A stretch of DNA of 64,000 nucleotides from an uncultured Flavobacteriales bacterium (lineage in GTDB: Bacteria; Bacteroidota; Bacteroidia; Flavobacteriales_D; Parvicellaceae), in NCBI GenBank assembly GCA_913030835.1, contig CAJWDP010000011.1, positions 1-64,000 of the forward strand, written 5' to 3'. Both the position numbers and the translations under genes were made by a program. Below, in pieces: positions 31,517 through 58,022 of the stretch. The notes beneath the pieces are model-generated. The model was not told the DNA's origin. It made no database searches and worked only from the letters and a program-made list of their open reading frames with translations. The stretch's first letter is position 1. Every line of letters begins with the position of its first letter.

Positions 31517-34500
31517 TCAACCTCCAATTACTGAAATATGACCCGAGTACTCATTTCCATCCGGGTCAATTATGATGTAGTAGTACGTGCCATTTTTTAC
31601 TCGTTCCCCCGTACTCGTTCTTCCATCCCAATTGTTCAAGTAATCGTACGTTTCGAATAATTTCTGACCCCACCTATTGTATATGGATATGTAACTTCCT
31701 GCCGGCATTCCGTCAATTCTAAACACATCATTTTTACCATTTCCATCTGTTGTAATGATATTCGGAATTACAATTGTGTCAAGTGCGTTAACTACTACTG
31801 TCAGGCTAACACTGTCGGAACAATTAAGGCCATTGGTAACGACTAACGTAACAAGATATGTTCCAGGATCGGTAAAATTGAAAGATGGATTCTGAACCCC
31901 ATCCGTACCCAATGTATCAAATTGCCAATTCCACTGCACTACATCGCTGGAAGACGCATCAAAAAAATCAATCAATGGATTGTTTACATCTGTTACAACC
32001 GGATTAGCTGTGAATGAAGCGGTTGGACTACCGACATCTCCAATTGTAATTGGTCCAATTGAATCAAAACAACCAACGGAATCCACCACAATCAGCGTAT
32101 AATCACCGGCAAAAAGGCCAGTCGTATCGAGTCCCGATGAGTTGCCATTCCACTGTATGTTGTAAGATCCTGTTCCTCCAGATACAGCTATCGATGAGAT
32201 AGCGCCAATTCCTTGTCCACAACCGTCGTCGGTAATTAGAATTCCTGACGTATCAATAGATGGACCAGGTATATTGTTCACAACATAAGGTCCCAGGCTG
32301 TCAACACAGCCATTATCATCGGTAATGACCAATGAGTAGGTCCCACTGGACAAACCGGTTGTATCCATTGAAGAGCTGGCAACCCCATTCCACTGGAACG
32401 ACAACAAACCCGATCCTGTCGCCGAAATTCCGGTTATGGAACCATCTACGCTACCGCAATGTTCATCAGAAATAATCACTGCAGAATCCGATGTACTTAA
32501 TGTAGAAGAAGTTCCTAATGAAAACGGACCAACTGACACAACGCAGCCTGCATTATCGGAAATCGTTAATGTGTAGCTACCTGCACCTAATCCAATCGTA
32601 TCAGCCGATGAAGTCAACACCCCATTCCAATTAAAAGTATAAGGGGATACTCCTCCCGATACGATGATACCCGTTATACTCCCGTCTACACCAGTACAAT
32701 TTTCGTTGGTTGTTACTAAACCGGATGTATCCACAGACAGGGTTGAAACATTGCCAACAGAGTATACTCCTGTAGAATCCACACAACCGTTGTTGTCTGT
32801 CACAACCAGAGTGTAATTACCCGTAACCAAGCCAATCGTATCAGGACCAGTGGTTGCAATTCCATTCCACTGGTAGGTGTAAGGAGCCGAACCTCCTGAA
32901 ACCAAAATACCCGTTATGCTTCCATCAGCAGCACTGCAATTTTCATCTGAGATCAAAAATCCGGTGGTATCGATTGATAAGGTATTTACACTGCTGATGG
33001 TATATACGCCTGTCGAATCAACGCAACCGTTGTTGTCAGTCACGACCAAAGTATAACTTCCCGCGCTTAAACCCGCTGTATCTGCACCAGACGCAGCATT
33101 ACCATTCCATTGATAGGTATACGGCAATGCCCCTCCCGTTAATATGATTCCCGTTATGCTTCCATCCGTAGCGCTGCAATTTTCATCACTCAATAAAACG
33201 CCTGTAGAGTCAATTGCCAGATTATTTATACTATTCACTACATGTGGTCCACTTGTAACTACACATCCATTATCGTCAGTTATTTGCAATGTATAGCTGC
33301 CTGCTGATACTCCGCTTGTATCCGCACTGGAGGAAAGGCTTCCGTTCCATGTGAACGAATAGGGGCTGGTTCCACCCGAAACCGTTATCCCCGTAATTGA
33401 TCCGTCAGCCGCGATACAGTTTGCATCAGTTATGGTAATTCCAGAGACATCGACTGACATGCCCGCAGAAGAACCTATAGTTATGGGGCCAACACTATTG
33501 GTACAACCCAACTGATCCGTTACCAGTAAAGAATAACTTCCTGCATTTGCTCCTAATGTATCTGCACCCGAAGCCAAACCACCATTCCAAGAATACACAT
33601 AGGGGGAAGTTCCTCCAGAAACAACAATTCCCGTAATGCTTCCATCATTCCCTGCGCAGGATTCGTCTTGTACAACCATACTGGTAGTGTCAATTACGAG
33701 ACCCGATCCGGTTCCTATCGTATAAGGTCCTGACGACGCTGTGCATCCTGCAGCATCACTAACAACTAACGAGTAAGATCCTGCCGAAGCCCCCACAGTA
33801 TCAATTGAAGAAGATGGCCCTCCATTCCAATCAAAAGTATATGGGCTTGAGCCACCCGAAACTAAAATACCCGTTATGCTTCCATCCGATCCGGCACAGG
33901 ATTCATCTGCAATGAGTATCCCTGAATCATCAATACTAATCGTTGGACTTACAATTACAAAAACGGTATCAAAATCAGTCCCTGGGCAAGAGCCAAAGTA
34001 AAACTCTGCATCGGCAAACAATACACCGGTCGTTAATGAAGTCCCTGTACCAACCTGATTCCAACCCGAATCGTACCAAACAATTACTGATCCCGATTCG
34101 GGTGATCCAGTTGCTACTAAAGTCGCGGTAGAACCTGAACAAATCGTATCGTTTGTTGACGCCAATGATGAGCCAGTAAATGGAGTAGCTTCAACTAAAC
34201 CAACGTCTCCGGAAGTTGCTCCATTGGGCTGAAAGTTAGACATGGTAGAGGAGTTTGTCGTGCCATAAACCCCACCGTTAACAGCTGCAGTGCCTGAAGT
34301 TCCATTCGTGTGGATATATCCTCCTCCTCCTCCTCCTCCGGGACCTTGTGCTTCATTTGAACTAGCAAAAGCACCAAAATCAAGTACCTGATTACCACCG
34401 CTACCTCCATTTGCAGAGATACCAACACCTACTATTGTTGATGGTGAGCTAATGAAAACGGTTCCACCTGCACCTGCACCTCCGGAACCATCCTTATTTG

Positions 34501-35743
34501 TAACCTGAGCAAACCCAGCGCTTGTATAATCTGAACCTTGACCATCCTCACCATCGGCAGCAATAGATCCTGTACCGGAGATTGTTCCGTTGGAAGAAAT
34601 AAATATAATTCCACCACCATCACCACCATTTCCTCCCTGGTTGTCATTTTGGTGACCTCCTCCACCACCTCCTCCGAAGAATAGCTTTCCGGTAGAATAA
34701 TCAAGGTCTCTTCCTCCATATCCCCCTGAATTGTTTCTGTTGTCACCTGCCCAAGATGAATTTCCCGGTCCGGTCGTTAATGGATTACTTGAATTGTCAG
34801 ACCAAGCATAACCCCCTCTTCCTCCTCCAGAAGATTCAGAACCAGGTGAAAGTCCCTCAAGGGCCCAAGCTGAAGAGTACGAACCCGTTGTGAAATCAGG
34901 AACACCTACCCCTGTCCATGTATTGACACCATTCGAGGCGTTGGCACCTCCTGCACCACCTGCATTGTGAGCAGAACCTCCGCCCCCTCCATTGCCAATC
35001 GCACCTTTTGCATATCGTCCTCCTATCAGCTGATAATCTGCCCAATCTCCAGCTACGCTCTCACCTTTCTCTCCTCCTTTATCCTGAGCTGTTCCTGCAA
35101 ACCAAGTAGAATTAAAATCCAGCGAACCATTATTTCCGGCTACGCTTCCGCCACGAAAGCCCAATGCACTGACATTCATCGTGCCGTTTATAGTCGTATT
35201 TCCATTGACTTCAACCGCCAGAATTCCTCCGGTAGTTCCATTCCAATCGTCAGCTGTGAGTGTCCCTGAAACGGTAAGATCGGAATATCGAGGAACACGT
35301 ACCACCTGCACATTACCTGCCGCCGTGTAGCTATTCGACAAGCCACAGCGCAAGTTGATGGTTGTTGCTCCTCCCGTTCCAATAACTTCAACATACTCCC
35401 AGTTCCCACAATTGTTCAAATTGGCAATCGAACCCCATGTGGAATTATTTGGATCGCATACATCACCAAATGTAGGATGTAACTGTCCATTAATTGTAGC
35501 TCCTTGTATCTGAATCAGTAAAACCAGATCTCCAGGTTCCAGTGCTCCTGAAAATCTACCGTTTGCATTTAAGTTATTTGAACTTACTGTAATTACAGTG
35601 GATCCTGCAGTTGCGTCAGCGGTCAGCGTGGTATACTCATTTACCACTTCCGTACCTGTAACGGATTTAGCCCCGTCTTTTTCACGTTGCCCATAAATTC
35701 CTAGAGCAAACAGACAAAATAAAGGAATAAAAGCAATTCTCAT
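31517..35743 (-). CDS. Giant SprB-repeat adhesin with gliding-type T9SS C-terminal domain
   Basis: A 1408-residue exported protein. After the signal peptide (AFIPLFCLFALGIYGQ) comes a glycine-rich beta domain (about residues 30-520) with runs such as GNGGGGGSAHNAGGAGG. A short Ig-like segment leads to eight tandem SprB-type repeats of 79-80 residues (about 600-1240), each with a Cys pair (ESCAG... and ...AGCTAS), SITGI..SGG, W/NG and AGSY. A PKD domain follows (ASFTANPVV...NFTDPGTYLVTLVV), then a gliding-motility-type (type B) sorting domain with NIITTDGNGKNDVFRI, IYNRWGQKLFE and NWDGR. Such proteins are moved over the surface by gliding machinery or act as adhesins. Operon with a GT-C-like gene and a GH3 gene. 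Confidence 0.93.
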   Translation of the reverse strand: MRIAFIPLFCLFALGIYGQREKDGAKSVTGTEVVNEYTTLTADATAGSTVITVSSNNLNANGRFSGALEPGDLVLLIQIQGATINGQLHPTFGDVCDPNNSTWGSIANLNNCGNWEYVEVIGTGGATTINLRCGLSNSYTAAGNVQVVRVPRYSDLTVSGTLTADDWNGTTGGILAVEVNGNTTINGTMNVSALGFRGGSVAGNNGSLDFNSTWFAGTAQDKGGEKGESVAGDWADYQLIGGRYAKGAIGNGGGGGSAHNAGGAGGANASNGVNTWTGVGVPDFTTGSYSSAWALEGLSPGSESSGGGRGGYAWSDNSSNPLTTGPGNSSWAGDNRNNSGGYGGRDLDYSTGKLFFGGGGGGGHQNDNQGGNGGDGGGIIFISSNGTISGTGSIAADGEDGQGSDYTSAGFAQVTNKDGSGGAGAGGTVFISSPSTIVGVGISANGGSGGNQVLDFGAFASSNEAQGPGGGGGGGYIHTNGTSGTAAVNGGVYGTTNSSTMSNFQPNGATSGDVGLVEATPFTGSSLASTNDTICSGSTATLVATGSPESGSVIVWYDSGWNQVGTGTSLTTGVLFADAEFYFGSCPGTDFDTVFVIVSPTISIDDSGILIADESCAGSDGSITGILVSGGSSPYTFDWNGGPSSSIDTVGASAGSYSLVVSDAAGCTASSGPYTIGTGSGLVIDTTSMVVQDESCAGNDGSITGIVVSGGTSPYVYSWNGGLASGADTLGANAGSYSLLVTDQLGCTNSVGPITIGSSAGMSVDVSGITITDANCIAADGSITGITVSGGTSPYSFTWNGSLSSSADTSGVSAGSYTLQITDDNGCVVTSGPHVVNSINNLAIDSTGVLLSDENCSATDGSITGIILTGGALPYTYQWNGNAASGADTAGLSAGSYTLVVTDNNGCVDSTGVYTISSVNTLSIDTTGFLISDENCSAADGSITGILVSGGSAPYTYQWNGIATTGPDTIGLVTGNYTLVVTDNNGCVDSTGVYSVGNVSTLSVDTSGLVTTNENCTGVDGSITGIIVSGGVSPYTFNWNGVLTSSADTIGLGAGSYTLTISDNAGCVVSVGPFSLGTSSTLSTSDSAVIISDEHCGSVDGSITGISATGSGLLSFQWNGVASSSMDTTGLSSGTYSLVITDDNGCVDSLGPYVVNNIPGPSIDTSGILITDDGCGQGIGAISSIAVSGGTGSYNIQWNGNSSGLDTTGLFAGDYTLIVVDSVGCFDSIGPITIGDVGSPTASFTANPVVTDVNNPLIDFFDASSSDVVQWNWQFDTLGTDGVQNPSFNFTDPGTYLVTLVVTNGLNCSDSVSLTVVVNALDTIVIPNIITTDGNGKNDVFRIDGMPAGSYISIYNRWGQKLFETYDYLNNWDGRTSTGERVKNGTYYYIIIDPDGNEYSGHISVIGG
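32030..33940 (-). repeat. Eight tandem SprB-type repeats (about 240 bp each)
   Basis: Within the adhesin gene, eight repeats of 79-80 codons run without spacers. Protein similarity is high (SITGI, SGG, WNG, AGSYTL, DNNGC) but most third codon positions differ, so only short identical DNA words remain, such as CCCGTTATGCTTCCATC (plus-strand form) in several units. Repeats 4 and 5 are the closest pair. Seven of eight units have a DT(V/L/A/I/T) triplet at the same place, about ten residues before the AGSY turn. Confidence 0.85.
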
Positions 35744-35744
35744 T

Positions 35745-36977
35745 TTAGAATATCAGTTTATAATAAGCCTCCCAGTCCCACACATCTCCATGAAAGCAAT
35801 CGTCATACTTATAAATCATTTTTAAATTGATAAAAACAAAAACGGCTGCAAGTGTAAGCGCTAAGTATCGTAAAGACGAAAATCTTGACCTGAAAGTTTG
35901 CTGTACAAATAAACAAAATGGAATGGAAAAAGGCACAATATATTCGACCAAGTTCCGGGAACCATAGCTACACCCATAAAACCAGCAATGCCAAGCACTG
36001 AAGATATAACTAAACACGAGGAACAATACAATGAATTTAGCTGAGTCGAGTCTGTTTTTCTTTCGCATCATGAATACTCCTATAAGAGCGAACACAAACA
36101 TGGGTGTAATTACAAAAAGTCCGTTCTTCGTCGAAAACCAAAACTTAAGAATCTGTGGATTGAGCAGGTAATCGAATCCTTCTTCCTCGTAGGAATAATG
36201 CAATAGGTTTCCAGAGCTATAACGCCAGTAGATGAACTGAGGAATCAAAGGCAGAACAGCAATCAAAAGAACAATGACAATTAAAACTGGTTTTCTGATC
36301 AGCTCTGCAATAATTATTCGAAATAAGGTTGGCTTCAAAAAGAAAAGAAATACTATATATATCAAACTCGTTGGTCGAACAACAATGCAAAGACTGCAAG
36401 CAAAGGCAAACAACAAAAGGTATTTCAATTTGAAATTGTCAACCAAAAGATCGGCAAGCCACAGCATCAACGAAAAAAGAAAAAACGAATAGATATGCGA
36501 CATCCCGGAGGAATTCAGAGCATAATAATAGAGGTTGGTTCCTGCAAGGAGAAAAAACAAGGTGACGAAAACAAACTTTAAGTCGTACCGTTTCACCAAA
36601 TATTTTTTCAGAAAAACAAGGCCCATCAATAAATAAAAAATGCCTGCCATCCACAAGCCTATATGGTACTCAGAGCTGTAGCCGTCCGCATTGCCGTTTA
36701 AGAGCGCAAAACCGTGAGCTACGAGAAAGAAGGGCAATTCCATGATCGCAACTCCCACGGAATATTTCGTTGAAAGCATACCTGTTCCCTGATCGATTTC
36801 AAAGCCATGGCCAAGCTTTTGAGGCCAATCAAGCGGCATAGCACCGGGCTCCCATCCGTATATAAAGGTTGCAGGTAAATAAACATAGTAACCTGCTGCG
36901 TCTGCCCAGATCGGATCTTTATAATTGGAATACTCGTTTTTACTATTGAGGTTAAGACACAGGAAAAACAGGAACAT
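35745..36977 (-). CDS. Multipass membrane protein, GT-C glycosyltransferase-like
   Basis: A 410-residue protein with about ten hydrophobic segments. The first external loop contains PIWADAAGYYVYLPATFIYG, with an early Asp and aromatic run as in GT-C fold glycosyltransferases using lipid-linked sugars. The C-terminus is a short aromatic tail. The frame stays open upstream of ATG 36977 to a TAG at 37040 and encodes TFEFIVWSTIG directly before the ATG, which completes the first membrane helix; no ATG, GTG or TTG is present there, so the true start may be a non-standard codon such as ATT at 37022. One base separates it from the adhesin gene downstream, so they are certainly cotranscribed. Glycosylation of a surface product is an inference. 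Confidence 0.68.
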   Translation of the reverse strand: MFLFFLCLNLNSKNEYSNYKDPIWADAAGYYVYLPATFIYGWEPGAMPLDWPQKLGHGFEIDQGTGMLSTKYSVGVAIMELPFFLVAHGFALLNGNADGYSSEYHIGLWMAGIFYLLMGLVFLKKYLVKRYDLKFVFVTLFFLLAGTNLYYYALNSSGMSHIYSFFLFSLMLWLADLLVDNFKLKYLLLFAFACSLCIVVRPTSLIYIVFLFFLKPTLFRIIIAELIRKPVLIVIVLLIAVLPLIPQFIYWRYSSGNLLHYSYEEEGFDYLLNPQILKFWFSTKNGLFVITPMFVFALIGVFMMRKKNRLDSAKFIVLFLVFSYIFSAWHCWFYGCSYGSRNLVEYIVPFSIPFCLFVQQTFRSRFSSLRYLALTLAAVFVFINLKMIYKYDDCFHGDVWDWEAYYKLIF

Positions 36978-37096: not shown

Positions 37097-37121
37097 TCTG
37101 TAAGAATGTATCCGTTTGCAA

Positions 37122-38612
37122 ATGGAACGATATGATTTATGTGTGATTGGTGGAGGTCCTGCAGGGTATGCTGCAGCGATGCGGGCCATCGATTTTGGCA
37201 AACGGGTAATCCTAATCGAAAAGAGTAAAGTTGGAGGAGCAGGTGTTTACAACGGTGCTTTATCCTCAAAAACCTGGTGGGAGCTTTCTCAAAAGGTAAG
37301 GGCGGTTAACGAATCCATCGTATCTGTCGGCAGATCGAAATTTGGAATTACTTGGCAAGAAGTCATTAAAACGGAGCAGGAAGCTCTATTTGATCGAAAA
37401 TTTCAGTATAGCTGTCATATCAAACTGCTACAGGAAGAATCCATGAACAACATCTTCACTTACGAGCGTGGGTATGGAAAAATCATTTCTGCTAACGAGG
37501 TCAGTATCGACAAAGGAAAGCAGGAGTTGACAATTTGGGCTGAAAATATTATCATAGCAACAGGGTCTCGCCCAAGAGCTCTGCCAAATATTCCCGTAGA
37601 TGAAAAGATCATCATGACCAGTGATGGCATTCATCAATTGGAAGAATACCCAAAAAGTCTGGTCGTGGTTGGTGCAGGTGTAATAGGATGCGAATATGCG
37701 ACCATATTTGCCAACTTTGGCAAAACCCGAGTTCATCTCATTGACCGTGCTGATCGTATACTTCCCTTCGAAGACGAGGACATTTCCAAATTGGTGGATA
37801 ACAATTTGAAAAAAGAAGGGGTTGTAATGCACCACAATTCATCTTTGGAGAGGTTGGAGATAAAAGATGGAGAGGTGGAATATGAATTGTCCTACGAGGA
37901 TGGAAGAAGAGAAGTGATCAGAGTTGAAAAAGCCCTTCTTGCAATTGGAAGAATACCAAACGTTGAAAATATAGGACTGGAAAACGTTGGAATTCAAATG
38001 GGAGAAACGGGAAGACATATTGGCGACGATGATACTCGCACAAATATTCCCAACATTTATGCGGTTGGAGATGCTTCAGGAAGAATAAAGCTCGTTAACA
38101 TGGGCGAAATCGAAGCAAGGCATGCAGTGGAAAAAATATTTGGAAATAAAAAAACACGATTGTCGTATGACAATGTGACGACGATCATGTTTTTGCAACC
38201 GGAGGTGGCTGCTGTTGGAATGAATGAAAAAATGGTACGCGATCAGAACATCCCGGTTAAAGTTGTTAAGATCGACTATTCGTGCATTGCCCGAGCTATT
38301 GCCATGAGAAAAACGGAAGGATTCTTTAAAATCATTGTTTCAAACGATGATGAAATGAAAATACTCGGAATGCGTGCGATTGGTGAACATGCTTCAAGCG
38401 CCGTTCAGGCCGTAGCATTGTTGATCAAACAAAACCGGGGAATCGAAGAACTCGCTGAACTGGTTCATCCACACCCATCCATTATTGAAGGTATTCAAGA
38501 GTGTGTCAGGATGCTATTAAACAAATCTATATTCAAATCCTCTGTCTTCAAGGACAAGCTGAAATGCTACAGTTTTATTGATGGTGTAAAAACACCGCTT
38601 CAGAGACTTTAA
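37122..38612 (+). CDS. E3-like NAD(P)/FAD oxidoreductase lacking the redox disulfide
   Basis: A 496-residue flavoprotein with the fold of dihydrolipoamide dehydrogenase and soluble transhydrogenase. The FAD site is CVIGGGPAGYAAAMRA, the NAD(P) site VVVGAGVIGCEYATIFANFG, and the second FAD motif IYAVGDASG. Where dihydrolipoamide dehydrogenase has GGTCLNVGCIPSK, this protein has GGAGVYNGALSSKTWWELS with no cysteine. The C-terminal His-Glu pair is retained (HPHPSIIEG). It therefore cannot use a disulfide and probably transfers hydride or electrons directly from FAD, as in transhydrogenases or quinone-reducing relatives. ATG 37122 is preferred over the TTG two codons before. The gene stands alone. 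Confidence 0.82.
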   Translation: MERYDLCVIGGGPAGYAAAMRAIDFGKRVILIEKSKVGGAGVYNGALSSKTWWELSQKVRAVNESIVSVGRSKFGITWQEVIKTEQEALFDRKFQYSCHIKLLQEESMNNIFTYERGYGKIISANEVSIDKGKQELTIWAENIIIATGSRPRALPNIPVDEKIIMTSDGIHQLEEYPKSLVVVGAGVIGCEYATIFANFGKTRVHLIDRADRILPFEDEDISKLVDNNLKKEGVVMHHNSSLERLEIKDGEVEYELSYEDGRREVIRVEKALLAIGRIPNVENIGLENVGIQMGETGRHIGDDDTRTNIPNIYAVGDASGRIKLVNMGEIEARHAVEKIFGNKKTRLSYDNVTTIMFLQPEVAAVGMNEKMVRDQNIPVKVVKIDYSCIARAIAMRKTEGFFKIIVSNDDEMKILGMRAIGEHASSAVQAVALLIKQNRGIEELAELVHPHPSIIEGIQECVRMLLNKSIFKSSVFKDKLKCYSFIDGVKTPLQRL

Positions 38613-54125: not shown

Positions 54126-54155
54126 TTGAAAGCAAACTTTAATTCAATATATTTA
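54126..54155 (+). promoter_or_regulatory. Promoter for the M43 protease gene (TTG-N19-TATATTTA)
   Basis: TTG at 54126-54128, exactly 19 bases, then TATATTTA at 54148-54155 (one mismatch to TAnnTTTG). Transcription would begin near 54162 and the ATG is at 54183, which excludes the TTG at 54126 as translation start. Confidence 0.6.
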
Positions 54156-54182
54156 CAAGGCATTAAAGTAAACAAATTAAAC

Positions 54183-57100
54183 ATGATTCGATCAATTTTC
54201 GCAGTTGTTCTGTCTTTGCTGTGCGTTTCATTCGTGCAGGGGCAATCCAACTCAATTATCCCAAACAATATTGAAAAAAATGTATCAGAGAAAGCGCTGA
54301 ACATAGCCAAATTTAAAATCCATTCAAGCAAGGATGATCAAAGCAATCATTCTGCAAGTCCTGAAGATGGAAATCATTTTTGCGGTGCTCATACGTTAAC
54401 CAATAGTTTCCTTAAAAACAATGGTTACGAAGAGCAGTATCAAGAATTCAGGGAGGAGCTTCTTGAAGCAGCTCAAAATTATATTCCAACCAAGGCATTA
54501 AGAGGACCCATTCCGGTGATTTTCCATATCGTACACAATCCATCCAATCCTTCAGAAAATGTTCCGTACAGCACAGTTCAGAGCTACATGGATATTTTAA
54601 ATGAGGATTTTCAGCTATTGAATTCAGACGCTGTAACTACACACACAACGACTTATGGATTTACAGCAGCAAACGTTGAACTTTCATTTTGTCTTGCAAC
54701 ACAAGACCCTTCAGGAAACACATTGGCTGAACCCGGGGTAGAGCGAGTTACGACCACAGAAGGTTGGTATGATTCTAACGGAGGTGAAGAAAACAAAATG
54801 AAACAAGCGTCAACCGGTGGCGCGGATGCTTGGCCAAGAGAAGATTACATCAATGTGTGGATCTGCGATATAACCAATGGTGCGTCTTCTGGAACAGCAG
54901 GTTATGCATATTTACCCTCCAATTTCATACCGGTATACTGGGACGGAATTGTAATCGATTACCAGCTCTCAACTCCGTCAAGCCGAACTTTAACGCATGA
55001 AATGGGGCACTTTTTAGGTTTGAATCACACATGGGAGGGTACAGGTTCCGGTGCATGCGGTGATGACGACGGACTTACGGACACACCATTTACAGCTGGG
55101 CCATTCTTTAACTACTCTTTTGGTTGTCCATCTAGTATCAGCACTTGCGGATCTATTGAAACCCAATACGAGAACTTCATGGATTACAGCAACTGCTATG
55201 CTCTGTTTACACAAGAGCAGGCCAATGTTATGAATGCTACGATGAATAGTACTGTAGCAGACCGAAGTAGCCTTTTACTTTCAGATAAATGTAATGCGGC
55301 GGGCCCACCAGTTTGCGCAGCTTCAGCAAGCGCATCTACAATTACTGTAGGAGGATCTGTTGATTTCTTCGACAATTCATCCGGGCTTCCGGATACATGG
55401 TCGTGGGATTTTGGTGGTGGAGGTACACCGGGAACATCGACAGTGCAAAATCCAACAGGAATTGTGTTTAATACAATAGGGTCTTATACCATCACTCTAA
55501 CCGCATCAAACAGCCTTGGCTCTTGTAATACAACTCTCACGATCAATGTAATCCCTTCATCCGGATGCGATACGCTGTCCAATATTTCGGACACAATGAC
55601 ACTCACCATTTATGGTTCTCCAGGAGGAGGTTATGTCACAGGGGTGAACGCTTATGGGGATCTAGCAAAAGCTGAAAGATACTCGGGTTATTCACCCTAC
55701 ACCCATGTAACCGGTGGACAGGTATACCTATTCAATGTGAAAGACGGTGGCAACTCCTCTACACTTGACCTGGTAGTGTGGGATGATGTCGGGGGTCTGC
55801 CCGGAACAGAACTTGGACGCGCCTCCTACGACTTATTATCTATTGAAACTGCTCTCGGAGGGCCAGGGAATCAAGGAGTGTTGAATCTCTTATTCAATTC
55901 ACCTGTTAATGTTGCCGGAGCTGATTTCTTTTTAGGAGTTGATTTTGCTTCGTTTGGTAATGGCGACACGATTGGAGTAGTTCAGAACTTACTCAGCGTA
56001 GGTTCAAATACGGGTTACGAACAATGGAACGATGCAACGTGGTACGACATGGAAACGGCATGGGGTGCGGGAAATACTTTTTCACTTTACATCAATCCGC
56101 TCGTTACGGATGTACCCGTACAGGCCAATGTCTCTGCCAACCCTTCAACCGTTTGTGCAGGTCAGCCGATAGATTTTAATGGAACTGCATCTATAGATGC
56201 ATCCGGATACAGCTGGTTTTTTCCCGGCGGAACCCCTTCTACCGGATCGAACGGGACAGAAACAGTGACCTACTCCGCTGCAGGCACATACATGAACTAT
56301 TTCTACGCGCTTGGGGCTTGTAACGGCCAGGACCTCGACTCGGTTCAGGTGGTCATCACCAATGGACCAACAGTAAGCACGGTTTCAACCGATCCATCAT
56401 GTGCAGGCAACGACGGTGAAATAGACATTACAGTAACTGGGGGATCTGGAAGTTATGAATACAGTATAGATGGTGGAACCACATTTCAATCTACCGGTGT
56501 ATTTACCGGCCTCTCCGCTGGGACCTATGATGTCGTAGTAAATGACATTTCAAGTGGATGCAGCTCGACCGATGCCATAACAATCACTGGGTCGGCGACG
56601 AGCTTAACCGTTACAACTGTAGAGGGAATTGAAACCTGCTCAGGCAATGACGGCTCAATCGACATAACGGCTTCAGGTGGTTCCGGATCCTATGAATACA
56701 GCATTGATGGAGGTGTGACATTTCAAACTTCACCTATATTCACAGGACTTACCGGAGGAACCTACACCGTCGTGGTTAACGATTTGTCGGTAGCTTGTTC
56801 AGGGTCCTCAACATCAGTAGTTAACGTATCAACTACCCTATCGTTGTCATCCAACAGTACGGATCCGACGTGCGTTGGTGCGGACGGAACCATTACCATC
56901 ACGATTCCCAGCGGTTCCGGGTCCTACGAATTCAGTATTGACGGGGGAGCAACATTCCAGTCCGCCGGATTCTTTAGTGGATTGTCTGGAGGAACGTACA
57001 ATGTTGTAGTGAACGACCTGACAACCGCTTGTTCAGGTACGGATGTGCTGACCTTAGCCGCATCCTCTGGAGGGCCGACAGCTTCAGCTTCTGCATCCAG

Positions 57101-58022
57101 CAACTCAATTTGTGAAGGCGACCCTGTCACAATAGCATCCTCAGGAGGCACTTCGTACTCCTGGAGCACAGGACAGACCACAGCCTCATTTACAGATTAT
57201 CCCACATCAACAACTACCTATATTGTTTTTGTTGAAGATGCTTCCGGCTGCAGTGATAGCGCAACTGTAACCGTAACCGTATCGAGCGTACCGGTAACAA
57301 CAGTTACGGGTGACACCTCAATTTGTCAAGGAGATACTGTAGTTCTAACAGCCAATGGAGGAACAGACTATTTTTGGAACACATCTCAGACTACACAATC
57401 CATAACAGTTTCGCCCGCAAGCACAACAACCTACTCTGTAGTCGCATCTGATGGGCCTTGTACAGGCTCATTGGCCAATTCTGTTGTAACCGTGTTGCCT
57501 ACGCCTAATCTAATTATCGATGCATCTGCCACCACTGTATACATCAGCTTGGGTGCATCCGTTGATTTCAGTAATATTGGCTCACCTGCCGTTACCTACT
57601 TATGGGATTTCGGAGATGGTGCAACGTCAACTTCGATCAGTCCAACTCACGTATATACAACTGCCGGAACATACACCGTTACTCTAAGTGGGACACTAGG
57701 TTCATGCACAGGAACAGACACAATCACCATTATCGTGCTTGATGAAGTAGGTATAAACGAAAACGCGTCTTTTTCAACTATCCTAATGTACCCAAATCCA
57801 ACACCGGGATTGGTACAAATAGAGATGGCCAACAAAAAAGAGTTGAATTTGGAAATTCAGATTTTGGATGCAATCGGCAATCTGGTGATGGTCAAGAACC
57901 TGAGCGGAGTTGAACTAAAGACGACACTGAACCTAACCGAAAATGCTTCGGGTATATATTTGGTTCGCTTTCTTGTCGGCAACGAACAAATTACGAGAAG
58001 ATTGTTCGTCATTGATCAATAA
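54183..58022 (+). CDS. Secreted M43 metalloprotease with PKD, SprB-like and Ig-like modules and T9SS sorting domain
   Basis: 1279 residues from ATG 54183, where a clean signal peptide begins (SIFAVVLSLLCVSFVQGQ). The catalytic domain has HEMGHFLGLNH (HExxHxxGxxH) and the Met-turn NFMDYSNC, marking the pappalysin/M43 group. Modules follow in order: PKD (WSWDFGGG), an unassigned beta-sandwich, a second PKD-like domain, three SprB-like repeats (YEYSIDGGTTFQ), two Ig-like domains (SICEGDPVTI, SICQGDTVVL), a PKD (YLWDFGDGATS) and a type A sorting domain (ILMYPNPTPG). Exported by T9SS; the modules may bind glycans or cells. A strong terminator follows. Confidence 0.92.
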   Translation: MIRSIFAVVLSLLCVSFVQGQSNSIIPNNIEKNVSEKALNIAKFKIHSSKDDQSNHSASPEDGNHFCGAHTLTNSFLKNNGYEEQYQEFREELLEAAQNYIPTKALRGPIPVIFHIVHNPSNPSENVPYSTVQSYMDILNEDFQLLNSDAVTTHTTTYGFTAANVELSFCLATQDPSGNTLAEPGVERVTTTEGWYDSNGGEENKMKQASTGGADAWPREDYINVWICDITNGASSGTAGYAYLPSNFIPVYWDGIVIDYQLSTPSSRTLTHEMGHFLGLNHTWEGTGSGACGDDDGLTDTPFTAGPFFNYSFGCPSSISTCGSIETQYENFMDYSNCYALFTQEQANVMNATMNSTVADRSSLLLSDKCNAAGPPVCAASASASTITVGGSVDFFDNSSGLPDTWSWDFGGGGTPGTSTVQNPTGIVFNTIGSYTITLTASNSLGSCNTTLTINVIPSSGCDTLSNISDTMTLTIYGSPGGGYVTGVNAYGDLAKAERYSGYSPYTHVTGGQVYLFNVKDGGNSSTLDLVVWDDVGGLPGTELGRASYDLLSIETALGGPGNQGVLNLLFNSPVNVAGADFFLGVDFASFGNGDTIGVVQNLLSVGSNTGYEQWNDATWYDMETAWGAGNTFSLYINPLVTDVPVQANVSANPSTVCAGQPIDFNGTASIDASGYSWFFPGGTPSTGSNGTETVTYSAAGTYMNYFYALGACNGQDLDSVQVVITNGPTVSTVSTDPSCAGNDGEIDITVTGGSGSYEYSIDGGTTFQSTGVFTGLSAGTYDVVVNDISSGCSSTDAITITGSATSLTVTTVEGIETCSGNDGSIDITASGGSGSYEYSIDGGVTFQTSPIFTGLTGGTYTVVVNDLSVACSGSSTSVVNVSTTLSLSSNSTDPTCVGADGTITITIPSGSGSYEFSIDGGATFQSAGFFSGLSGGTYNVVVNDLTTACSGTDVLTLAASSGGPTASASASSNSICEGDPVTIASSGGTSYSWSTGQTTASFTDYPTSTTTYIVFVEDASGCSDSATVTVTVSSVPVTTVTGDTSICQGDTVVLTANGGTDYFWNTSQTTQSITVSPASTTTYSVVASDGPCTGSLANSVVTVLPTPNLIIDASATTVYISLGASVDFSNIGSPAVTYLWDFGDGATSTSISPTHVYTTAGTYTVTLSGTLGSCTGTDTITIIVLDEVGINENASFSTILMYPNPTPGLVQIEMANKKELNLEIQILDAIGNLVMVKNLSGVELKTTLNLTENASGIYLVRFLVGNEQITRRLFVIDQ
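56370..57065 (+). repeat. Three SprB-like repeats inside the M43 protease gene
   Basis: Three units of about 78 codons share the pattern C-x-G-N/A-D-G, GSGSYEYSIDGG.TFQ, FTGL..GTY and VVVND. They differ in sequence class from the repeats in the adhesin at 31517-35743, which contain WNG. The DNA is not identical between units, so duplication is old. Confidence 0.75.

Follow-up and report, generated by a model that had tools for sequence, protein, structure and literature searches.

The general O-glycosylation system of the Bacteroidota, of the LFG type described in Bacteroides fragilis, modifies exported proteins at a short sequon, D-S/T-phi, which we take here in its canonical form as D[ST][AILVMT]. 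Such a system is predicted to leave an excess of the motif in exported and not in cytosolic proteins, and a 2025 review describes its oligosaccharyltransferase (OTase) as undiscovered (PMC12871550). In Tannerella, S-layer proteins exported by the type IX secretion system (T9SS) carry O-glycans at such sequons (PMC8550257). The T9SS protein SprE is reported to be O-glycosylated, in a paper whose passages on the subject hold nothing about glycans on SprB (PMC10994853). Spreading mutants of F. collinsii lose high-molecular-weight glycosylated surface material (PMC9950754). Here we describe an SprB-type adhesin encoded in a stretch of 64,000 nucleotides (the window) from an uncultured Flavobacteriales bacterium of the Parvicellaceae (contig CAJWDP010000011.1). 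Each of its eight repeats carries an Asp-Thr (DT) triplet resembling the sequon, and its gene directly follows that of a membrane protein predicted to have the glycosyltransferase C (GT-C) fold.

The genes form a minus-strand unit in the order GT-C (36977-35745), adhesin (35743-31517) and a glycoside hydrolase family 3 (GH3) glycosidase (31504-30416), encoding respectively a multipass membrane protein of 410 residues, a T9SS type-B adhesin of 1,408 residues with SprB repeats (PF13573, PF13585, TIGR04131) and a NagZ-like enzyme. A single base separates the first two genes, at the junction TAA-A-ATG, and 12 bases separate the second and third; the three are presumably co-transcribed. The original prediction had placed a GT-C-like gene one base upstream and a GH3 gene downstream, and the gene order and the PF00933 match (176.5 bits, over the cut-off for the GH3 N-terminal domain) agree with it. 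The whole unit is present in all three members of the genus, g1, that were examined (G000, G001 and G002).

The DT triplet is probably a by-product of the structure of the repeats, used at most by a general glycosylation system. In fuller form, the adhesin would be exported by the T9SS from a gene unit that opens with the GT-C gene and closes with the GH3 gene, and its triplets would be the genus version of a structural element, D-(L/I/A/T)-x, standing shortly before a conserved G-x-Y. A swap of the hydrophobic residue and the T within it (DLT to DTL) would have produced the match to the sequon. Any use of sites exposed in the periplasm would probably fall to the general O-glycosylation system. 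The GT-C would not read the DT sequon; its donor would most likely be a polyprenyl-phosphate-linked sugar, and it would most likely decorate a lipid-linked or surface glycan at the periplasmic face of the same cell, a surface role that it would share with the adhesin. We give this account, taken as a whole, an even chance.

The register triplet and the SprB repeat family

The triplets stand at one fixed repeat position, which we call the register, and were located by translation of the minus strand. From repeat 1 to repeat 8 they are DTV (residue 648, positions 33794-33802), DTL (728, 33554-33562), DTS (808, 33314-33322), DTA (888, 33074-33082), DTI (968, 32834-32842), DTI (1048, 32594-32602), DTT (1127, 32357-32365) and DTT (1206, 32120-32128). 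DT is thus found in 8/8 repeats and a canonical sequon in 7/8, just as had been predicted, the third residue of DTS being non-canonical; DTS lies within the broader motif described for Tannerella, where the only DTS predicted in TfsA went undetected (PMC8550257). The additional canonical motif predicted near the start of four repeats is also present (DTT 685, DST 845, DTT 925, DSA 1086), and four repeats have a motif at a third position, after GC, that the prediction did not include (DST 909, DST 989, DSL 1148, DSI 1227).

The whole adhesin has 21 canonical motifs, compared with 8.4 expected from its composition and 16 occurrences of the reversed motif, and its first 520 residues have none. 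The repeat region holds 16, against a mean of 5.6 in shuffled sequences, with 14 reversed. We dropped the shuffle test as evidence although it was nominally significant: the repeats are paralogous, and reversed motifs are nearly as numerous. Its P-value was not used, since a tripeptide conserved across eight related repeats enters the count some eight times.

The comparison with other SprB repeats is more informative about the register. Pfam finds 91 SprB matches in the genome. A hidden Markov model (HMM) of the repeat was built from 70 repeats of the genome's other proteins, with the adhesin excluded, and used to align 240 repeats across the open reading frames (ORFs) examined. D[ST] occupies the register in 8/8 repeats of the adhesin and in 0/133 other repeats of the genome, of which 13 have D there. 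The triplet is therefore not a generic property of SprB repeats, a condition on which the original prediction depended, and it sets the window adhesin apart from other SprB-type adhesins. In the same 133 repeats the next position, occupied by T in the adhesin, is hydrophobic in at least 110, and T or S follows it in 82.

Orthologues, recognised by the adhesin's N-terminal domain, place the triplet in a family context. Within the genus, D[ST] is at the register in 7/9 repeats of each of the two other members (G001 and G002), which brings the genus total to 22/26, compared with 27/381 in the orthologues examined outside it. A first set of 15 proteins from outside the genus has D at the register in 55/75 repeats and D[ST] in 23/75. 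A second set, non-random in that it was made up of top-ranked matches and genomes with the GT-C, is drawn from 39 genomes and comprises 41 adhesin ORFs; repeats could be recognised in 35 of these, with D at the register in 127/303 and D[ST] in 4/303. The residue after D in this set is L in 67 cases, I in 25, A in 20, V in 6, T in 4 and another residue in 5, with D-L-T a frequent form. On these alignments, the register D is a trait of the adhesin family, and it needs no glycosylation as its explanation, because orthologues share the D with L, I or A next to it.

The adhesin and orthologues together have a hydrophobic third residue in 29/45 triplets with T in second place and in 9/39 with L, I or A (P 2e-4 for the exchange, calculated on non-independent repeats). 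As read from the aligned repeats, the two positions after the register exchange their hydrophobic and polar residues, and the D-T-phi of genus g1 would be a swapped variant of the family element.

The predicted structure of repeats 4 and 5 is rich in beta strands (predicted local distance difference test [pLDDT] 91.9, predicted TM-score [pTM] 0.67), and strand 50-53 of the model starts at the register T. Both the profile of the repeat searched against Protein Data Bank (PDB) sequences (E 0.004) and the VIA fold search (Z 7.6, with 0/999 chains at Z >= 8) gave the grappling hook protein GhpA of Aureispira as the best match. Since numerous unrelated Ig-like chains score within 1 Z of GhpA in VIA, the match shows no more for the repeats than an Ig-like arrangement.

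An alternative is that the DT is purely structural, a turn cap or metal ligand with its T buried in the core, and never receives a glycan. The hydrophobic character of the position after the register, in the genome's other repeats and in at least 55/96 orthologue repeats, agrees with this, as does the retention of D where T is exchanged for L, I or A; the best Foldseek match of the repeats in the PDB is the calcium-binding adhesin SiiE, at a TM-score of only 0.35. The hydrophobic residue is commoner after T than after L, I or A, however, as if T faced outward, and we regard a DT that is never glycosylated as somewhat unlikely.

The GT-C membrane protein and its pairing with the adhesin

The original prediction proposed comparing the membrane protein with GT-C folds, and that comparison bears it out: the fold of the upstream gene product is confirmed by structure prediction as GT-C. 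The AlphaFold2 model, from an alignment of 56 rows, has pLDDT 94.9 and pTM 0.93. VIA matched it to ALG12 with Z 23.4 over 344 residues (4.1 Å), to archaeal AglB with Z 20.0 over 318, to ArnT with Z 19.0 over 329, and to the fungal protein O-mannosyltransferases (PMTs) Pmt4 and Pmt1-Pmt2 with Z 16.3-17.1 (Pmt4 17.1). At Z >= 8 there were 53/379 chains, and the best 50 of these 53 are all GT-C enzymes, GT-C-containing complexes or the U subunit of the glycosylphosphatidylinositol (GPI) transamidase. The top rows of a Foldseek search have a probability of 1.00, yet none has an E-value <= 0.001. Most of the 410-residue model aligns with the GT-C enzymes ALG12 and ArnT and with oligosaccharyltransferase (OST) and PMT modules; it differs from them in an identity of about 9% and in having no soluble C-terminal domain. 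The span aligned with OST chains, up to residue 394, corresponds to their N-terminal membrane part, and the protein, ending at residue 410, lacks the soluble domain found at the C-terminus of PglB/STT3-type OTases.

Sequence profiles place the protein less closely. An hmmsearch of its profile against PDB sequences gave 0 matches at E <= 1, EpsG (PF14897) scored 20.2 bits, under its gathering cut-off of 30.1, and no PMT domain exceeded a Pfam cut-off. The best match was to the LA_3751/LA_3752 family, NF047440 (39.7 bits, E 2.6e-10), far under the cut-off of 200; this profile also weakly matches a paralogue in the same genome and three other GT-C homologues, and does not match the copy in G061, a genome of another family. 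Residue D26, a candidate for the catalytic Asp in the first periplasmic loop, is invariant in the 56 aligned sequences. Sugar transfer is the activity predicted from the model.

ALG12 uses dolichyl-P-mannose as donor and a lipid-linked glycan as acceptor. The family of the GT-C is large, with 295 Bacteroidota relatives in one scan, and the paralogue in the same genome abuts a glycosyltransferase family 2 (GT2) gene. We favour decoration of a lipid-linked or surface glycan as the role of the GT-C on these three grounds: the size of the family, the GT2 gene beside the paralogue and ALG12 as best structural match.

The linkage of the two genes was surveyed in 399 genomes of the order, each protein being searched at E <= 1e-50. 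The adhesin's N-terminal 520 residues matched in 120 genomes and the GT-C in 34. Both are present in 24 genomes, and the two genes lie within 5 kb of each other in 7 of these. Three of the seven are the g1 members, where the spacing is 1-2 nucleotides. G061 has the same gene order and strand (L235:7238-13452), with an overlap of about 35 bases if the ATG preceding KTFSRS is the start of its adhesin; a PorP/SprF gene follows that adhesin. The genes are divergent neighbours in G012, 3.4 kb apart in G003, and in G317 the GT-C lies 0.7 kb downstream of the adhesin with one small ORF between them. They are about 11 kb apart in G308. A rough estimate, from a target of about 14 kb in about 3 Mb, is that about 0.1 linked cases would arise by chance; since 7/24 is far above this, the linkage is real, even with the three congeners counted once.

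The GT-C is not a general partner of SprB proteins. Among the best 80 of the 295 relatives, whose loci were surveyed, an SprB ORF is in the stretch at 7, and we rejected that candidate role; the adhesin itself is in the stretch at 3, two being those of G001 and G002. GT-Cs of up to 500 residues do have more immediate neighbours with a T9SS C-terminal domain (CTD), 19/102 compared with 21/469 among genes at least three places away. This is not evidence for a link to the sequon, because 13 of the 19 belong to a single syntenic family, with totals of 72 forward and 75 reversed motifs in its proteins. GT-C relatives are also encoded immediately downstream of a T9SS type-A protein of about 495 residues (L128, L131, L145, L156, L163 and others), a block conserved in other Bacteroidota, with yebC next in several.

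Other genes share the surroundings of the adhesin, the recurrent families among them being identified through one Pfam representative each. Of the adhesin loci, about 60 in number, 28 encode a CxxCxxCC protein upstream (at position -1 in 18 and -2 in 10) and 23 a SiaB-like kinase downstream. An oxidoreductase homologue on the opposite strand is near the adhesin at 18 loci in all; in the window, a dihydrolipoamide-dehydrogenase-like oxidoreductase gene (37116-38609, plus strand) lies upstream of the GT-C gene and divergent from it. The adhesin of G012 sits between a Glycos_transf_1 gene, itself beside a YfhO gene, and the GT-C. At seven loci of genus g16 (family f8), the adhesin is immediately preceded, on its own strand, by a gene of the GT2 family, with -43 to 45 bases between stop-to-stop ORFs (L241, L244, L245, L246, L248, L250 and L253, assigned by Pfam for L241 and by clustering for the others). 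This is a second pairing of the adhesin with a glycosyltransferase, an enzyme unrelated to the GT-C.

A variable upstream slot, seen in the CxxCxxCC protein and the divergent oxidoreductase, is what would be expected if the neighbours were functionally unrelated and the GT-C were one of several surface-polysaccharide GT-Cs that happened to occupy it. The size of the GT-C family is in keeping with this, as is a tree that does not firmly unite the linked copies: four of them group against three near ones with support of 65/80, many basal branches are open, and the copy in G317 belongs to another clade. Co-location so far above chance, with near-zero spacing in g1 and an overlap in G061, speaks against unrelated neighbours, and we consider this explanation unlikely.

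Among the open alternatives for the role of the GT-C, the strongest is a transfer to the adhesin that does not depend on the sequon. The enzyme would be a PMT-like transferase dedicated to the adhesin, modifying its Ser/Thr-rich surfaces during export and reading no sequon. The spacing and co-location of the pair, the VIA matches to Pmt4 and Pmt1-Pmt2 and the GT2 gene directly upstream of the adhesin at the g16 loci all fit such a partnership. Against it, 96/120 adhesin genomes have no GT-C match at the survey threshold, most close relatives of the GT-C do not lie beside the adhesin, and the protein has no PMT domain over a Pfam cut-off; we judge it rather improbable. The more specific proposal that different lineages pair the adhesin with different private, sequon-independent glycosyltransferases (the GT-C in g1 and G061, GT2 in g16) is more doubtful still.

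Natural variants and the general sequon system

The frequency of the register triplet, compared as originally proposed between adhesins with and without a neighbouring GT-C gene, does not follow the GT-C. With the gene adjacent or near, D[ST] is at the register in 1/7 repeats in G061, 0/15 in G317, 0/3 in G012 and 3/7 in G003. Where no GT-C was in the fetched stretch, the values are 4/7 (G011) and 3/7 (G018) in genus g2, to which G003 belongs, and 0/3 (G019) and 1/4 (G004) in g3, the genus of G012. Over the whole protein, the G061 adhesin has one canonical sequon in 1,274 residues (4.4 expected, 7 reversed), that of G317 has 26 (8.0 expected, 17 reversed), and that of G308, where linkage is not close, has 22 (7.5 expected, 17 reversed). 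Two adhesins rich in sequons, those of G057 (17 sequons, 5.6 expected, 3 reversed) and G027 (14, 3.8 expected, 4 reversed; on a cut contig), have no GT-C within the fetched flanks, and both genomes have GT-C homologues elsewhere.

Sequons were counted in 222 ORFs, from the window and 20 further stretches of the genome, 19 of them chosen around SprB genes, with export classes assigned crudely from hydrophobicity windows. Exported proteins without SprB repeats or a CTD have 110 motifs (65 reversed, 71 expected) and membrane proteins 51 (28 reversed), whereas cytosolic proteins have 65 (71 reversed). These counts indicate a general O-glycosylation system in the genome, and given this excess, exposed sites on the adhesin may be used without a dedicated enzyme. 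The adhesin, with its 21 motifs and its CTD export signal, is itself a sequon-bearing exported protein, and its regular glycosylation by the general system is possible as far as sequence can tell. It resembles the described substrates in its triplet, its export and the motif excess in exported and membrane proteins of its genome outside the SprB and CTD classes, and it has a precedent in the Tannerella S-layer proteins (PMC8550257). It differs in that its register D is explained by the repeat family and that the system is indicated here by sequence counts; a GT-C of this kind is not named among the pathway components in section 5 of the review (PMC12871550).

Several observations weigh against the account that we prefer. 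The linkage of GT-C and adhesin recurs in G061, G012, G003 and G317, beyond what a general surface-glycan gene calls for. D[ST] comes near fixation only in the genus in which GT-C, adhesin and GH3 were seen together; this is a single lineage, so the near-fixation is inseparable from shared ancestry, and a single correlated origin is conceivable. There is also no clear sequon excess in the 22 other SprB proteins (231 motifs, 234 reversed) or in the 11 CTD proteins without SprB repeats (38, 34 reversed), and these counts give no indication that T9SS cargo is, as a class, a target of general glycosylation.

The natural variants nevertheless lend no support to a transferase dedicated to the triplet, as the original prediction had proposed, since G061 keeps the gene pair with D[ST] in one of seven repeats and one sequon in the protein, and neither G317 nor G012 has D[ST] at the register. 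A GT-C that reads the DT sequon and regularly glycosylates the adhesin shaft is, in our view, very improbable: the three-gene unit and the high D[ST] count throughout the genus, a fold related to OST and PMT modules and a sequon OTase that is undiscovered in the phylum (PMC12871550) speak for it, and the variants just named, the same-genus comparisons with and without the GT-C that show no difference, the general sequon system already indicated in the genome and a protein that ends without a PglB/STT3-type soluble domain speak against it. The GT-C fold, the non-generic triplet, the sequon excess in exported proteins and the recurrent gene pair are supported; a tie of the GT-C to the triplet is not.

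Sequons are abundant in certain of the genome's other SprB proteins: L022:8262-16901 has 49 (16.9 expected, 11 reversed), L013:5593-8526 has 20 (5.8 expected, 7 reversed) and L027:4231-7605 has 17 (6.6 expected, 2 reversed). They are possibly better glycoprotein candidates than the adhesin, judged by these counts. The window's second SprB-repeat protein (54126-58022, plus strand) has 7 sequons with 7.3 expected, no excess. Two tandem SprB genes on contig C7 of the same genome (L014:4351-9720 and L014:9758-14242) contain identical repeat sequences, suggesting recent duplication or recombination.

Domains of the unit and meaning of the pairing

The adhesin, a putative surface-displayed protein with a possible role in adhesion or gliding, has its remaining domains on the minus strand. 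Its N-terminus is hydrophobic by eye and is followed by a glycine-rich, AgmC_N-like domain, with its best stretch at residues 22-272 (34928-35680). This domain scored 138.3 bits against NF047640 and missed the AgmC equivalog-domain cut-off of 275, a difference from the described SprB-type adhesins. An Ig_7 domain occupies residues 528-584 (33992-34162; PF19081, 30.1 bits, cut-off 27.3). The eight SprB repeats, of about 80 residues each, cover residues 604-1239 (32027-33934), with PF13573 matching in eight stretches (E 6.1e-44, 147.8 bits, cut-off 28) and the repeat HMM and beta-rich model concurring. They are followed by a PKD domain at residues 1240-1315 (31799-32026; PF18911, 31.8 bits, cut-off 27) and by the type-B T9SS C-terminal signal at residues 1325-1401 (31541-31771), where CHU_C (PF13585) scored 63.8 bits over a cut-off of 27 and TIGR04131 39.2 over 35. 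The repeats and this signal, both over their cut-offs, are shared with the SprB-type T9SS type-B adhesins.

The GH3 product has an N-terminus resembling a signal peptide and scored 124.9 bits against the NagZ-type family NF003740, under the cut-off of 207. Its gene has the same position in G001 and G002, and among the loci examined it adjoins the adhesin directly only in genus g1. Three g2 genomes have distant homologues (31-32% identity) at 7-9 kb from the adhesin, and a GH3 gene was found as a cross-family partner of the adhesin in 0 of 40 loci compared.

Because the OTase of the Bacteroidota sequon system is described as undiscovered (PMC12871550), a GT-C gene beside a sequon-bearing adhesin looks like a lead to it; the lead is weakened because the gene pair also exists without the sequon. 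Our literature search, mostly of titles and from which we claim no absence, returned no title on a glycosyltransferase dedicated to a T9SS adhesin. The parts of the unit are ordinary. What remains, and is moderately interesting, is that glycosyltransferase genes are repeatedly paired with one adhesin family, and nature provides variants with and without the GT-C and with and without sequons. Should the GT-C prove to be private to the adhesin and independent of the sequon, it would represent a second, adhesin-specific glycosylation route in the Bacteroidota beside the general one.

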